Positions 41,797-47,317 of a stretch of 47,575 nucleotides of DNA are shown one piece after another. The DNA lies in contig JAHEXI010000008.1 in NCBI GenBank assembly GCA_023252195.1, positions 160,980 to 208,554 of the forward strand, read 5' to 3'. Origin of the DNA: Pseudonocardiales bacterium (lineage in GTDB: Bacteria; Actinomycetota; Actinomycetes; Mycobacteriales; Pseudonocardiaceae). The notes under the pieces were generated by a model, which was not told where the DNA came from, searched no databases, and worked only from the letters and a program-made list of their open reading frames with translations. The first letter of the stretch is position 1. Every line of letters begins with the position of its first letter. The translations under genes were made by a program, and so were the position numbers.

Positions 41797-42606
41797 TTAT
41801 TCGGGTGCCGGTAGCCCCGCTGAGCCCGTTGAATGCGGATCGGGACGGGGGGTGGCGGCGTCGAGATAGCGCAGGAGTTCGATCGGGAAGGGCAGGACCA
41901 GGGTTGAGTTCTTCTCTGAGGCGACCTGCACGACGGTTTCCAGCAGGCGTAGTTGCAGGGCACCGGGGGTATCCGCCATCGCAGCGGCTGCTTGGGCCAG
42001 CTTCTCCGACGCTTGCAGCTCACCCTCGGCGCTGATCACCCGGGCCCGCCGTTCCCGCTCAGCTTCGGCCTGGCGCGACATCGACCGTTTCATCGACTCC
42101 GGCAGCGCGACGTCCTTGATCTCCACCCGGTCGATCTGCACGCCCCAGCCCAGCGCGGGGCTGTCGATCAACAGTTCCAGCCCCTCGTTGAGCCGCTCGC
42201 GGTTGGACAACAGATCATCCAGGTCGCTCTTGCCGATGATCGAGCGCAACGAGGTCTGCGCGACCTGGGAGACGGCTTGGAGGTAGTCCTGCACGTCGAC
42301 GACGACCTTGACCGGATCAACGACCCGGAAGTACACCACCGCGTCGACCCGGACTGAGACGTTGTCGCGGGTGATGCCGTCTTGGGCAGGCACCGGCATG
42401 GTGACGATCTGCATGTTGACCTTGCGGAGTTTCTCCACCCCCGGGGTGACCCAGGTCAACCCGGGCTGCCGCGGTGTGCTGGTGACCCGACCGAACCGGA
42501 ACACCACGCCCCGCTCGAACTGGCTGACCACCCGTGCACCGGAGAGTAACCACATCGCCCCGATGGCCACGATCGCGATCAGCACCGCGATGATGGTGAC
42601 GGTCAT
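41797..42606 (-). CDS. Slipin (SPFH/stomatin family membrane protein)
   Basis: 269 residues: N-terminal membrane helix (VTIIAVLIAIVAIGAMWLLSG), SPFH domain from VVSQFERGVVFRFGRV to about 160 (PGLTWV.PGVEKLRKVNMQ, DAVVYFRVVDPVKVVV, SLRSIIGKSDLDDLLSNRE), a coiled segment of Arg/Glu repeats (SMSRQAEAERERRARVISAEGELQA), and a C-terminal tail. Likely oligomerises in membrane microdomains. ATG 42606 with GGAGG 7 nt upstream. Often paired with an NfeD protein, not seen here. Confidence 0.93.
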   Translation of the reverse strand: MTVTIIAVLIAIVAIGAMWLLSGARVVSQFERGVVFRFGRVTSTPRQPGLTWVTPGVEKLRKVNMQIVTMPVPAQDGITRDNVSVRVDAVVYFRVVDPVKVVVDVQDYLQAVSQVAQTSLRSIIGKSDLDDLLSNRERLNEGLELLIDSPALGWGVQIDRVEIKDVALPESMKRSMSRQAEAERERRARVISAEGELQASEKLAQAAAAMADTPGALQLRLLETVVQVASEKNSTLVLPFPIELLRYLDAATPRPDPHSTGSAGLPAPE

Positions 42607-42727
42607 AGCGCACCTCCGCTCGGGAGGAAATCTGGCAAACCACCTCACGGTACGCCGTGGCTTACGGTTTGGGTTGGACACGTAGCTCGGGAGTGTCGCC
42701 CCCGAAAGAAATCGCTACTGTGGTGTC

Positions 42728-43591
42728 ATGCGGGCGATATGGAAGGGCGCACTGGCCTTCGGGATGGTCAGCATCCCGGTTCGGCTGTATTCGGCTACCG
42801 AAGATCGTGATGTGTCCTTCCATCAGGTGCACGATGAGGACGCCGGTCGGGTGCGCTACCAGCGGATGTGCACGGTGTGCGACCAGGAGGTCGCCTACGC
42901 CGACCTCGCCAAGGGTTTCGAGCTCCCCTCAGGTGAGACGGTGATCCTCACCGACGAGGATTTCGCCAACCTGCCGCTGCCCACCACCAAGGTCGTCGAG
43001 CTGGTCGCGTTCGTGCCGGCTCACCAGGTCGATCCGCTGGCGTTGGCCCGCGGGTATTACCTGGAGCCAGATCCGGCCGGCCGCAAGCCTTACGAGTTGC
43101 TCCGAGCGGCGCTGGACCGCACCAGCCGGGTGGGCCTGGCCAAGATCGCGGTGCGGAGCAAGGAATCGCTGGCCGTGCTGCGACCCCGGGGTGACGTGCT
43201 CGCGTTGCAGACGATGGTCTGGCCCGATGAGGTGCGCAAGGCCCAGTTCGACGTGCTGGACCGCGAGGTGTCGGTCAGCGACGCGGAGCTGAAGATGGCC
43301 GACACCCTCATCGAGGCGATGTCCGGCGACTTCACACCCGAGGCTTACCAGGACGGGTATCGCGAGGCGTTGCTGTCGGTCATCGAAGCCAAGACCGCTG
43401 GCAAGGAGTTCGTCGCCCCGCCGACGTCGGCGCAGCCCGCCCCGGCGGTGGACCTGATCACCGCGTTGAAGGCCTCCGTCGAGGCTGCCAAGGCCGCTCG
43501 CGGTGACCCACCGAACGTGCCGAGCCAGCGCCAGTCCGGTAACAAGGGCAAGTCCGGTGATAAGGGTAAGCAAGCCAGCCGTCGAAGCTGA
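42728..43591 (+). CDS. ku: Ku protein of bacterial NHEJ
   Basis: 287 residues, the usual length for single-domain bacterial Ku, which forms a ring on DNA ends and recruits ligase D. Conserved start MRAIWKGALAFGMVSIPVRLYSATE, QRMC.VC.QEV, LTDEDF.NLPL and the QTMVWPDEVRKAQFDVLD segment are present. The tail is Lys/Gly-rich and basic (SGNKGKSGDKGKQASRR), as expected for the DNA-binding extension. It is followed after 7 nt by the pseudo-ligase/histidine kinase gene, so both are made from one message. Separate copies of the polymerase domain of ligase D are not in this window. Confidence 0.96.
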   Translation: MRAIWKGALAFGMVSIPVRLYSATEDRDVSFHQVHDEDAGRVRYQRMCTVCDQEVAYADLAKGFELPSGETVILTDEDFANLPLPTTKVVELVAFVPAHQVDPLALARGYYLEPDPAGRKPYELLRAALDRTSRVGLAKIAVRSKESLAVLRPRGDVLALQTMVWPDEVRKAQFDVLDREVSVSDAELKMADTLIEAMSGDFTPEAYQDGYREALLSVIEAKTAGKEFVAPPTSAQPAPAVDLITALKASVEAAKAARGDPPNVPSQRQSGNKGKSGDKGKQASRRS

Positions 43592-43598
43592 GTCGACG

Positions 43599-45173
43599 AT
43601 GTCAGAGCTGGTGCGTCCGATGTTGCCGACAGCGGGTCCGCTGCCGACGGGCCCGGGCTGGGCTTTCGAGTTCAGCTGGGACGGGATCCGCTCGCTGGCG
43701 TGTGCCGAGCCCGACCGGATGTGCCTGTTCAGCGGCAGCCACCGCAGCATCACCGCCGCGTACCCGGAACTCGGAGCGTTCGCGGGGCGGCGTCGGATGC
43801 TGCTCGACGGCAAGATCGTCGCGTTGGACTCCTGCGGACGCCCCAGCTTCGCGCAGCTCCACCGGCGGATGAACGTGCAACGTCCGACCGCGACGGTGTT
43901 GTGCCGCTCACCGGTCACCTACTACGTGTTCGACCTGCTCAGCCTGGACGGCCGGTCCACCGCCGCGCTGCCGTATCAGCGCCGCCGGGAGCTGCTGGCG
44001 GAACTCGAGCTCGCCGACGGATCGGTCGTGCTGCCGCCCTTTTTTCTGGATGCCGACGGCCAGACGGTGCTGGACACCGCTGCCGAACACGGTCTGCGCG
44101 GCGTGGTCGGCAAGCGGGTGGACTCGCCGTACCAGCCGGGCCGGTCCCGTAGTTGGATTCAGACCACGTTGCGCCAGTCCCAAGAAGTGATCATCGGAGG
44201 GTGGGTGCCCGAACGTCACCGCGCTGCCGGGATCGGCGCTCTGCTGGTCGGCGTCCCCACCGAGCAGGGCCTGCGATACGTTGGCCAGGTCGCTACGGGT
44301 TTCACCGAAGCGGCCCGCCGGGAGCTGCGCGACCGGCTGACCGAGCTGGCCCAGCCGGCCAGTCCGTTCAACGATGAGGTGCCCGACCGGGATGTGCACT
44401 GGGTGGCTCCGCGACTGCTGGGCGAGGTCTTCTACCGGCAGTGGACCGCCCACGGTCGCCTCGGGCACCCGACCTGGCGCGGTCTGCGCCCCGCCAAGCA
44501 CGTGGCGGCGGTACAGGCGCCGGTCGTGCTGCGGGCCCGCGAAGGTGGCCGCGAAGAGGACCAACAGTTGCTCGCCGAGCTGGACCGCGCTGTCGCGCAG
44601 GTTCGCGCCGAACTGCGGACGCTGCGCGGCCAGATCTCCCCGCACTTCCTGTTCAACACGATCAGCACCATCGTCGGCCTGGTCAGCACCGACCCGCCGC
44701 GGGCCCGGGACCTGCTGATCGTCTTCGCCGAGTTCACCCGGTACTCGTTGCGTTCGGTCGCCCACACCACGCTGGCCGAGGAGCTGGAGAACATCGACCG
44801 CTACCTGACGCTGCAACGGTCTCGCTTCCGCGATCGGCTCCGAGTGCAGCTCGACGTCGCGCCGGCGGCACTGCCCGTAGCGCTGCCGTTTCTGGCGGTC
44901 CAACAACTGGTCGACAACGCGGTTCGCAACGGCATCGAGCGCAAGCAGCTCGGCGGTACCGTCACGATCTCCGCGCGCATGCAGGGTCCGGACTGCCTGA
45001 TCACCGTCGCCGATGACGGGCCCGGGAAGCAGGACGCAGACGTCGGGGACATCCTGGGCACGATCGACGATCAGCTGCGGGACTCCTTCGGCGAGCGGGC
45101 CAGCGTGGTAGCCGACTTCATCCCCGGCACCGGAACCACGATCTCCATCCGGGTGCCGAGCGTTGCGCGATGA
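43599..45173 (+). CDS. Fusion of catalytically degenerate DNA ligase domain and LytS-type histidine kinase
   Basis: 524 residues in one uninterrupted frame. Residues 1-305 are a ligase D-type ATP-dependent ligase: adenylation domain and OB fold, ending in the typical HPTWRGLRP at 290-298. But active-site positions are changed: the nucleophile Lys of motif I is Ser26 (EFSWDGIRS), motif III Glu is Lys72 (LLDGKIVALD), motif IV has RGVVGK instead of EGVVAK (Arg167), and the motif V lysines are WIQTTL (186-191). Residues 312-345 form a charged linker; 345-353 is QISPHFLFN with phospho-acceptor His349, N-box Asn440 (LVDNAVRNG) and G-box DDGPG at 472-476, i.e. a LytS-type kinase. No membrane segment. 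ATG 43599 lies 7 nt after ku. No response regulator gene is adjacent. Confidence 0.9.
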   Translation: MSELVRPMLPTAGPLPTGPGWAFEFSWDGIRSLACAEPDRMCLFSGSHRSITAAYPELGAFAGRRRMLLDGKIVALDSCGRPSFAQLHRRMNVQRPTATVLCRSPVTYYVFDLLSLDGRSTAALPYQRRRELLAELELADGSVVLPPFFLDADGQTVLDTAAEHGLRGVVGKRVDSPYQPGRSRSWIQTTLRQSQEVIIGGWVPERHRAAGIGALLVGVPTEQGLRYVGQVATGFTEAARRELRDRLTELAQPASPFNDEVPDRDVHWVAPRLLGEVFYRQWTAHGRLGHPTWRGLRPAKHVAAVQAPVVLRAREGGREEDQQLLAELDRAVAQVRAELRTLRGQISPHFLFNTISTIVGLVSTDPPRARDLLIVFAEFTRYSLRSVAHTTLAEELENIDRYLTLQRSRFRDRLRVQLDVAPAALPVALPFLAVQQLVDNAVRNGIERKQLGGTVTISARMQGPDCLITVADDGPGKQDADVGDILGTIDDQLRDSFGERASVVADFIPGTGTTISIRVPSVAR

Positions 45174-45263
45174 CTTGCCCGACAACGGCGTCGCTTCCGC
45201 CGCCGGCGAGTCGACCAAACGAGTGACATCACGCTCCTCTGCCGGGGAGTAGAGTGATCAACT

Positions 45264-45283
45264 GGGTGGCTACGAAGCCACCC
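45264..45283. promoter_or_regulatory. 8-bp stem with ACGA loop upstream of the methyltransferase gene
   Basis: GGGTGGCT / AGCCACCC with a 4-nt loop, 94 nt before the methyltransferase start and 90 nt after the kinase stop. It could end the ku operon or fold in the leader of the next gene. Confidence 0.4.
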
Positions 45284-45376
45284 GGCGACCGGGGGAATAA
45301 CCAGGACATTCCATTGCGTGACTTCTGCCTGGACTAATAATGCACGAAGCTGAGCAACGCGGAAAGAAGCATACTT

Positions 45377-46198
45377 GTGACGGACAACTCGCACACGCCG
45401 GTGCAGGAAAGGGCTGTGCCTATCAATACTGCAGTAGCGCACTCCGCTCGGTTCTGGAACTATTTGCTGGGTGGTAAGGACAACTATGCGGTCGATCGCG
45501 AGCTCGCGGAACAGATTATTGCTGTCATCCCAAGCTTCCGCGATACTGTCCGCGCCGAGCGAAGATTCCTGGCCCGCGCGGTCCGGTATCTGGCAGGCAG
45601 TGCAGGGATTCGTCAGTTCCTCGATATAGGCACCGGTCTGCCCACAGCCAACAACACTCACGAAGTCGCTCAAGCGACCGCACCGGAGTCTCGGGTTGTC
45701 TACGTCGACAACGACCCCATCATTATGGTACACGCCCGCGCCCTGCTCACCAGCACTCCACAAGGCAGAACCGATTACATTCAGGCAGACCTTCGCGAAC
45801 CAGAAACGATTCTACGAGAAGCCGCCAGGACGCTCGACTTCACCCGACCAGTCGGACTCATGCTGTTAGGAATCTTGAATTTCATTACAGATACGGACGA
45901 GGCGCACGCTATCGTGGACCGGCTCCTGGACGCGTTGCCGTCCGGTAGCCACCTCGTGATCTCCCACCCCACGGCAGAGGTCGACGGTGAGGCGATCAAA
46001 GAGACCATGCGGCTGTGGAATAAGCAGGGAGCAGCACCGATAGTGGCCCGCAGTCGTCAGGAGCTCATCCGTTTCTTCGATGGTCGGGAGCTAGTGGAGC
46101 CCGGCGTGGTCTCGTGTTCACTGTGGAGACCTGACTGCAGAACACTCGGTGTACCTGTGGAAGTGTTCCACTTCAGCGGTGTTGGACGGAAACTCTGA
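45377..46198 (+). CDS. S-adenosyl methyltransferase (DUF574/PF04672 type)
   Basis: 273 residues with the family markers NTAVAHSARFWNYLLGGKDNYAVDRE, QFLDIGTGLPTANNTHEVAQ (SAM-binding Gly-rich loop), VVYVDNDPIIMVHARALL and GLMLLGILNFI. The family is large in actinomycetes and often sits beside XRE regulators as here; substrates are unknown. GTG start at 45377 follows GGAAAG. The 203-nt region before it holds the small stem-loop and no gene. Confidence 0.93.
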   Translation: MTDNSHTPVQERAVPINTAVAHSARFWNYLLGGKDNYAVDRELAEQIIAVIPSFRDTVRAERRFLARAVRYLAGSAGIRQFLDIGTGLPTANNTHEVAQATAPESRVVYVDNDPIIMVHARALLTSTPQGRTDYIQADLREPETILREAARTLDFTRPVGLMLLGILNFITDTDEAHAIVDRLLDALPSGSHLVISHPTAEVDGEAIKETMRLWNKQGAAPIVARSRQELIRFFDGRELVEPGVVSCSLWRPDCRTLGVPVEVFHFSGVGRKL

Positions 46199-46414: not shown

Positions 46415-47317
46415 ATGGTGAGCGCGCCTCGGTGGACTGAGGATCTGAGCGGTGGGCCGGTTTCGGGGCGATCGCCGGGGCCGACCGCGCTGCGTATCGT
46501 GTTGGGTACTCAACTGCGTCGGCTGCGTGAAGCGCGTGGTATCACTGCGGCAGTGGCCGGGCACGGGATCCGGGCGTCCCACGCCAAGATCAGTCGCATG
46601 GAACTCGGCCGGGTCGGCTTCCGGGACCGCGACGTGGCGGACCTGCTCACCCTCTACGGCGTCACCGATGAGCAGGAACGCCGAGCGTTTCTCACCCTCG
46701 TTCGGCGGGCCAACGTGCCCGGCTGGTGGCATCAGTACAGCGACATCGTGGCGAGCTGGTTTGAGATCTACCTCGGCTTAGAGCAGGCCAGCTCGGTCAT
46801 CCGCACCTATCAACCACAGCTCATACCCGGCCTGCTACAGACCGAGGACGTCGCGCGTGGCGTCATCGAACTCGGGCACCCACGCCCCTCCGACGACGAT
46901 CTCGAGCGCCGGGTCTCCCTGCGGATGGCACGCCAAGAGATCCTCACCCAACCCGCAGCGCCCCAGTTGTGGGCCGTCATCGAAGAGGCCACGCTATGGC
47001 GGTTCAACGGGCGCTCGGTGATGCGGGACCAGATCGATCATCTGATCACGATGGCCGAGCTCCCCAACGTCGCACTCCAGCTGATACCGATCCACTCCGG
47101 GGCACACGTCGCACTAGGCGGTCCGTTTACGATTCTGCGGTTCGCCGAACCCGACCTACCCGACATCGTCTACCTCGAACAACTATCCAGCGCCCTCTAC
47201 CTGGACAAGAGTCAAGACGTCGATCACTACTTGCAAATCATGGATCTACTCTGTGTGCAGGCGAAATCCCCCGCCGAAACGATCAAGTTCCTGGGTGATT
47301 CATTCAAAGACCTTTGA
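46415..47317 (+). CDS. XRE-family regulator with DUF5753 domain
   Basis: 300 residues. Helix-turn-helix at about 24-80 (GTQLRRLREARGITA..., ASHAKISRMELGRVGF), then the DUF5753 ligand/partner-binding domain (100-285) with WFEIYLGLEQASSVIRTYQPQLIPGLLQTEDVAR and FTILRFAEPDLPDIVYLEQ. These regulators usually work with a small DUF397 protein encoded next door; no DUF397 gene is seen immediately after it, only a second XRE gene at 47488. ATG 46415 with GAGG just upstream; GTG 46418 is possible. Confidence 0.92.
   Translation: MVSAPRWTEDLSGGPVSGRSPGPTALRIVLGTQLRRLREARGITAAVAGHGIRASHAKISRMELGRVGFRDRDVADLLTLYGVTDEQERRAFLTLVRRANVPGWWHQYSDIVASWFEIYLGLEQASSVIRTYQPQLIPGLLQTEDVARGVIELGHPRPSDDDLERRVSLRMARQEILTQPAAPQLWAVIEEATLWRFNGRSVMRDQIDHLITMAELPNVALQLIPIHSGAHVALGGPFTILRFAEPDLPDIVYLEQLSSALYLDKSQDVDHYLQIMDLLCVQAKSPAETIKFLGDSFKDL

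Follow-up and report, generated by a model that had tools for sequence, protein, structure and literature searches.

LigHK, a LigD-type ligase without its active-site residues fused to a LytS-type histidine-kinase core in the Pseudonocardiaceae

Introduction

What might be the role of a protein that is encoded beside ku, resembles a DNA ligase over its first half and a histidine kinase over its second? The question is raised by a stretch of 47 575 nt from a Pseudonocardiales bacterium (GenBank assembly GCA_023252195.1, contig JAHEXI010000008.1, positions 160 980 to 208 554; hereafter the window), in which a ku gene is followed on the same strand, after a gap of 7 nt, by one gene encoding both halves, whose 524-aa product we name LigHK. 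Bacterial non-homologous end joining (NHEJ) is usually described as the work of Ku and LigD alone, and the sensing of DNA breaks in bacteria is generally described in terms of single-stranded DNA and RecA. The original prediction, made from the letters of the window, was that the ligase part had lost catalysis and had become a sensor of Ku-bound DNA ends, with signalling kept in the kinase part. The coordinates, strand, lengths and 7-nt gap that it gave for the two genes are all exact on recheck, and the single 524-codon frame joining ligase and kinase is borne out by the ORF translation and the Pfam matches (Table 1).

We compare the window, which belongs to the genus designated g1, with relatives from three other genera of the same family, Pseudonocardiaceae, designated g37, g42 and g4. 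Judged by its sequence, LigHK is a real and conserved fusion of known families, and signalling is the best single reading of its function, with DNA or Ku binding and phosphotransfer both predicted.

Loss of the active site and retention of the fold in the ligase half

The ligase half contains the same two domains as the ligase domain of LigD (PDB 1vs0, 6nhx and 6nhz), with 38–40 % identity to M. tuberculosis LigD over about 310 aligned columns, and in the window it likewise adjoins ku. The match of LigHK to TIGR02779 (235.9 bits) lies above the cut-off of 227.75, and the phmmer matches of LigHK include the ligase domain of M. tuberculosis LigD (3.8e-57) and the histidine-kinase structure 6swj (1.9e-18). 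We take the motif III glutamate to be Glu530 in M. tuberculosis LigD numbering. The active-site residues of LigD include Lys481, Glu613, Arg501 and Lys635, according to a published account (PMC8656161). In a 39-row ligase alignment (38 distinct sequences), the corresponding residues of LigHK are S26 for Lys481, G46 for Arg501 (placed by counting along the phmmer alignment), K72 for Glu530, R167 for Glu613 and Q188 for Lys635; each of these five positions is invariant (39/39) in the rows, which we call intact solely on the presence of their motif residues. S26, K72 and R167 had thus been correctly identified as the replaced residues of motifs I, III and IV. The loss of motif V also stands, but not its assignment to a TT pair, since Lys635 aligns with Q188 and the two threonines occupy the next two positions; a second motif V lysine, Lys637, is present in just 12 of the 39 intact relatives. 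The replacement of Arg501 by G46 is an extra active-site loss that had not been named.

Most of these losses extend to the other fusion copies. The catalytic lysine of motif I is found in 0/48 readable copies, as against 39/39 intact-motif rows, the motif III glutamate in 0/48 copies and the motif V lysine in 0/49; the motif IV glutamate survives in ten of 49 (seven in g42 and three in g4). Of the 67 positions conserved in at least 90 % of the intact rows, all five g1 representatives retain 51, and 40 persist in 22 or more of the 24 fusion representatives. Nine are kept in no more than six of the 24, namely the five active-site positions together with F84, Q88, L240 and D299. Two further arginines of LigD, Arg486 and Arg629 (R31 and R182 in the window), are kept in 23/24 and 24/24 fusion representatives respectively. 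In the adenylation domain the mean net charge is 4.0 to 5.0 according to genus, as against -0.2 in intact kin, which makes this domain the more basic; for the OB domain the two groups are not clearly distinct. Net charge, like the dN/dS ratios below, is a simple measure obtained with our own scripts.

The adenylation and OB folds are recognized both by Pfam and by Foldseek, so that the predicted loss of the active site with retention of the fold is upheld. The best Foldseek matches of an AlphaFold model of LigHK (mean pLDDT 77.6, pTM 0.47) are LigD ligase structures, headed by 6nhx (E 1.6e-31). The rmsd over the whole alignment with the LigD structures is 10.7–12.7 Å (10.9 Å for 6nhx), and the two domains are therefore arranged differently in the model, which is closer to nick-bound human DNA ligase I (about 4.5–5.6 Å over 326–362 columns); with a pTM of 0.47, this arrangement may be a modelling habit. 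Thus LigHK differs from the LigD ligase domain in lacking the catalytic lysine, Arg501, the motif III and IV glutamates and the motif V lysine, and in the addition of a kinase core. Judged by these residues, LigHK is no ligase.

The kinase half: an invariant His box and an uneven ATP domain

The kinase half is about 51 % identical to the LytS kinase encoded elsewhere in the genome (the resident LytS), and in the window it contains the His, N, G1 and GT boxes of LytS-type kinases. It departs from them in having no membrane segment (LigHK contains no obvious transmembrane stretch, the peak 19-residue hydropathy being 1.68), in having a ligase domain as its input and in its shortened ATP lid. The HATPase_c match, at 26.0 bits, falls just below the cut-off of 26.4. 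H349, N440 and the DDGPG box are present as originally read; the shortening of the lid had gone unnoted there.

Across the 49 fusion proteins examined, a set that omits G639 (near-identical to G638), H349 and N353 are present in every copy, including those in which the ATP domain is gone. The ATP-site asparagine (N440) is found in 10/10 g1, 3/3 g37 and 17/17 g42 copies and in one of 19 from g4; DDGPG is kept in all g1, g37 and g42 copies, and GT in all of these except one from g37. The lid segment is 26 residues long in 17/17 g42 copies, 17 in 10/10 g1 copies and 10–14 in g37, and a full lid with a G2 box is lacking in the LigHK of the window, where the GAHVGLGN of the resident LytS, whose lid includes GLGN, has no counterpart. 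The claim that signalling is kept therefore holds for the phospho-acceptor histidine, and for N440 and DDGPG in the window, but is in doubt where the lid is shortened (g1) or the asparagine gone (18/19 in g4), and as a general rule it is too strong on these sequences. From the asparagine counts and lid lengths, kinase chemistry appears plausible in g42 and uncertain in g1, and has probably been lost in most g4 copies. The features that are constant across the clade, at the level of sequence, are the dead ligase and the His-bearing dimer core.

Kinase cores of this kind could act through a partner. DivL is one of the histidine-kinase pseudokinases, which can alter signalling by a paralogous kinase. 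Another, ChrS(CA-fs), is without a working ATP domain and acts through a paralogous kinase (ChrS/HrrS); its phospho-acceptor histidine is reportedly dispensable, and a two-hybrid assay gave no hetero-dimers with the truncated form (PMC9491836). The g4 copies of LigHK may likewise alter signalling by a paralogous kinase, although the histidine, reportedly unneeded in ChrS(CA-fs), is invariant in LigHK. Neither ChrS(CA-fs) nor DivL is known to have a DNA-repair pseudo-enzyme as its input, as LigHK does.

Distribution and origin of the fusion

A search within the genus found LigHK in ten of 11 g1 genomes, the genome without it being 87 % complete. In the family, 49 of 390 genomes match a LigHK profile into the kinase half (10 g1, 2 g37, 17 g42 and 20 g4); G487 (g42, 83 % complete) and many g4 genomes are not among the matches. 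Searches of the order (397 genomes, E 1e-100) and the phylum (396 genomes, 1e-105) revealed no fusion outside the family, at strict cut-offs and with three candidates scored per genome, as in the family search, settings that distant or decayed copies may escape; 11 genomes of other families in the order search match in the ligase half only. Nine of 33 loci from named genomes are fusions, all of them in metagenome bins. Ligase-like matches occur in 72 plasmid records and never span 80 % of the query. The fusion is thus conserved as a two-domain protein, in 49/390 family genomes and 10/11 of the genus, which refutes its being a lone fusion or an assembly error, an outcome that would have undone the original prediction.

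The ligase halves (24 of the 49 fusions, five ligase rows being dropped, four as distant and one as truncated) form one clade inside the standalone intact ligases (SH-aLRT 99; 100/99 with the 11 lost columns masked). The kinase halves (16 of the 49) also form one clade (99/96), beside the resident LytS proteins of g1 and g37. A single fusion event followed by inheritance is the simplest reading of these trees and probably the correct one: an ancestor of the four genera would have fused a LigD-type ligase to a copy of its resident LytS kinase core. Several independent fusions are unsupported, each half forming one clade and the ligase half doing so with masked columns as well.

Selective constraint

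Comparison of each gene in five of the ten fusion-bearing g1 genomes, by the method of Nei and Gojobori, gives median dN/dS ratios of 0.205 for LigHK, 0.248 for the intact ligase, 0.153 for the operon Ku and 0.096 for LytS. By domain, and omitting G484 (g42), G625, G637 and G677 (g4, longer ATP domain) and pairs with dS outside 0.1–1.5, the ratios for the adenylation, OB, DHp and ATP domains are 0.22, 0.22, 0.19 and 0.29 in g1, 0.37, 0.38, 0.30 and 0.30 in g42, and 0.61, 0.71, 0.41 and 0.88 in g4 (16 copies). From the domain and whole-protein ratios LigHK is very probably functional in g1 and g42. The ligase part has lost the residues for self-adenylation and kept its fold, and in g1 the protein is under purifying selection. 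Constraint in g4 is, by the same ratios, weak, and least so in the DHp domain.

Linkage to ku, other ligases and gene neighbourhood

The ku-adjacent two-domain architecture recurs in relatives, as had been suggested for a check: all ten g1 loci carrying the fusion have ku directly upstream on the same strand. In g37, ku lies next door and convergent in two of three LigHK loci. In g42, LigHK shares a contig with a ku-adjacent gene in 15 of 17 genomes, the low coordinates of the two being 7.8–14.4 kb apart; the other two LigHK genes lie on a separate short contig. Tight ku adjacency is limited to g1 and two of the three g37 loci. The window genome contains two ku genes whose products are about 41 % identical (L078, G000:C31; window 42728-43591), one of them beside LigHK, and at 16 of the 19 g4 loci a DEAD-box/DUF3516 helicase gene lies beside LigHK in divergent orientation (e.g. 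L222, L208 and L076).

Table 1. Coordinates of ku, LigHK and its domains in the window, and of two short ku-adjacent ligase relatives in other loci
Feature	Coordinates	Strand	Evidence or remark
ku, NHEJ DNA-end-binding protein, 287 aa	42728-43591	+	TIGR02772 301 bits, PF02735 160.5 bits
LigHK, 524 aa, with a dead LigD-type ligase ahead of a LytS-type histidine-kinase core	43599-45173	+	
Pseudo-adenylation (NTase) domain, residues 5-190	43611-44168	+	Pfam DNA_ligase_A_M 62 bits; 39-row ligase alignment; Foldseek 6nhx, 6nhz, 1vs0
OB domain, residues 195-300	44181-44498	+	Pfam DNA_ligase_A_C 87.5 bits, residues 209-300
Linker, residues 301-336, pLDDT mostly <50	44499-44606	+	AlphaFold model
DHp / His box, residues 337-414, H349 and N353	44607-44840	+	Pfam His_kinase PF06580 76.9 bits
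ATP-binding (CA) domain, residues 415-520; N440, DDGPG 472-476, GT 512-513; lid shortened	44841-45158	+	
Second dead ligase, examples	L074:2048-2830, L072:1680-2471	+	ku-adjacent

LigHK is accompanied by other ligases. Further DNA_ligase_A_M proteins occur in 12/12 genomes tested, the window genome having one with intact motifs (L077), and there are two weak ligase matches in G037:C355 and G098:C24. A second dead ligase, a short adenylation-domain protein without the catalytic lysine, is encoded at 21 of 30 loci inspected (L270-L290), all of them ku-adjacent, in 18 g42 genomes and in G104, G673 and G037; no OB match was found in the two of these proteins that were scanned. The remaining nine loci (g4, L291-L299) encode longer ligases beside ku, with lysine at the same position. 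In the ligase trees the short proteins form a clade apart from that of LigHK, and they apparently represent a second, separate loss of ligase catalysis beside Ku. At one locus, L146 (G037:C543, 7510-10578), the gene for a short dead ligase, ku and a LigHK copy truncated in its ATP domain are all found within about 3 kb.

The neighbours of the pair in the window include genes for an SPFH protein, a PQQ-type beta-propeller protein, a SAM methyltransferase (45377-46198) and, downstream of LigHK, an HTH/DUF5753 regulator (46415-47317) with a relative only in L066, of the same genus, among the gene-called loci. No promoter or terminator was found in a scan of 42400-45400, and the PADLOC models of anti-phage defence gave no family for Ku or LigHK at E 0.001. 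An actinobacterial LexA-like pattern matches the whole window 39 times with three mismatches or fewer, compared with 19.7 expected from shuffles, an excess that is probably due to coding-sequence bias; the sole such match in 42400-45400, at 44899, lies within the kinase half.

A candidate partner

The window genome encodes one LytTR regulator and one other LytS, at the same locus as a formamidopyrimidine-DNA glycosylase and a solute symporter. The search for LytTR regulators covered ten genomes from g1, g42 and g4, and nine of them have just one; in eight of these nine it is on the same contig as the resident LytS and within about 5 kb of it, and in G102 the two are on separate contigs. Since the kinase half appears to derive from the resident LytS and its His box is retained, the most economical output for LigHK would be through the LytS–LytTR system, by cross-talk or by forming hetero-dimers. 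The resident LytS–LytTR locus L148:3893-8622 also encodes a formamidopyrimidine-DNA glycosylase (Fpg/Nei type) and an S49 peptidase, and the gene order of L149 (g42), judged by protein starts, is similar.

Discussion

We tentatively favour, at a little less than even confidence, the view of LigHK as a regulatory pseudo-ligase, docking on Ku or DNA ends and acting through its LytS-type dimer. Published data show direct binding of the LigD ligase domain both by Ku and by the Ku core (PMC9638933; also PMC13201618), and docking of LigHK on Ku is therefore plausible. The dead ligase domain would take the place of a working ligase on Ku and/or DNA ends; being incapable of sealing, it would stay there, and its binding would alter the state of the dimer. 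The output may be phosphoryl transfer at H349, either by the ATP domain of LigHK itself where this is intact or by the resident LytS acting in trans, and the phosphoryl group could then pass to the resident LytTR response regulator, such that unsealed ends change gene expression. This amounts to a two-component-type pathway, independent of RecA and LexA, with a dead NHEJ ligase as the sensor of Ku-bound unsealed ends, and we propose the complete pathway only as a possibility, one that we would not call probable.

Several observations weigh against this view. Upstream of the pair there is no LexA-like site with three mismatches or fewer, the best in 42400-43700 having four. No ku gene is present in any of the 19 g4 stretches fetched around LigHK, and constraint is weak throughout g4 (0.41–0.88 outside the linker, 16 copies), where 18 of 19 copies are without the ATP-site asparagine. 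The lid is shortened in g1 and g37, and LigHK is under looser constraint than the resident LytS (0.205 versus 0.096). Unlike in LytS–LytTR systems, no response regulator was seen beside LigHK among the 30 chosen neighbour proteins scanned from several loci, the search of the genomes for regulators having been confined to the LytTR family; and G080 has four LytTR regulators, the two g37 genomes three and four.

Some of these observations fit a more modest explanation, a serious contender that we hold to be possible rather than probable, in which LigHK is a non-catalytic NHEJ factor: the LytS-derived DHp would dimerize a dead ligase into a bivalent protein that bridges, protects or competes for Ku-bound ends, the kinase chemistry being vestigial. 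The persistence of dead ligase and DHp while the ATP domain erodes (dN/dS of 0.88 compared with 0.41 for DHp in g4), the more basic adenylation domain and the second Ku-linked ligase lineage without the catalytic lysine (21/30 loci) all speak for it. Dimerization alone, however, would not be expected to keep both the histidine and N353 in 49/49 copies, nor does it account for N440 and DDGPG in all g1, g37 and g42 copies, and GT in all but one from g37. Alternatively, LigHK might be a signalling kinase whose dead ligase part senses not DNA ends but a nucleotide, an RNA or another protein, its link to Ku being inherited from an old ku–ligase pair. Relatives do have such a pair with an intact ligase (L023; L291-L299), so that the ku-adjacent position can be ancestral, and two LigD arginines, Arg486 and Arg629, have been retained as R31 and R182 in the window, but the positions of Lys481, Arg501, Glu530, Glu613 and Lys635 are all lost in the window, and we regard this alternative as unlikely. 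A decaying relic without function seems quite improbable: the ligase active site is gone everywhere, the g4 ATP domain is nearly unconstrained (0.88) and one g37 copy is cut short (L146), yet the frame is open in 10/11 g1 and 17 g42 genomes, and in g1, for which a relic is disfavoured, its dN/dS is about equal to that of the intact ligase. A frameshift, assembly or binning artefact, to which the 48-contig assembly of the window and the nine named fusion records from metagenome bins might have pointed, has next to no likelihood and is rejected, the same architecture being found in independent assemblies that include the single-contig genome G042.

Within the titles and the beginnings of abstracts of open-licence PMC papers on dead NHEJ ligases, break-sensing kinases, pseudokinases and LytTR signalling of DNA damage, we found no description of a ligase–kinase fusion, and terms for this architecture have no match in two NHEJ papers (PMC7719229 and PMC5124664). 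If the proposed role of LigHK is correct, its coupling of a signalling kinase to the proteins of end joining would constitute another route of break sensing besides RecA, and the notion of NHEJ reporting its state to the cell would become directly testable. Even on the more modest reading, catalysis has apparently been lost on two occasions among the Ku-linked ligases of this family, so that ligase domains without it may serve as functional components of bacterial NHEJ. The LigHK family also provides a natural series for the loss of the ATP domain from a kinase core that keeps its histidine.

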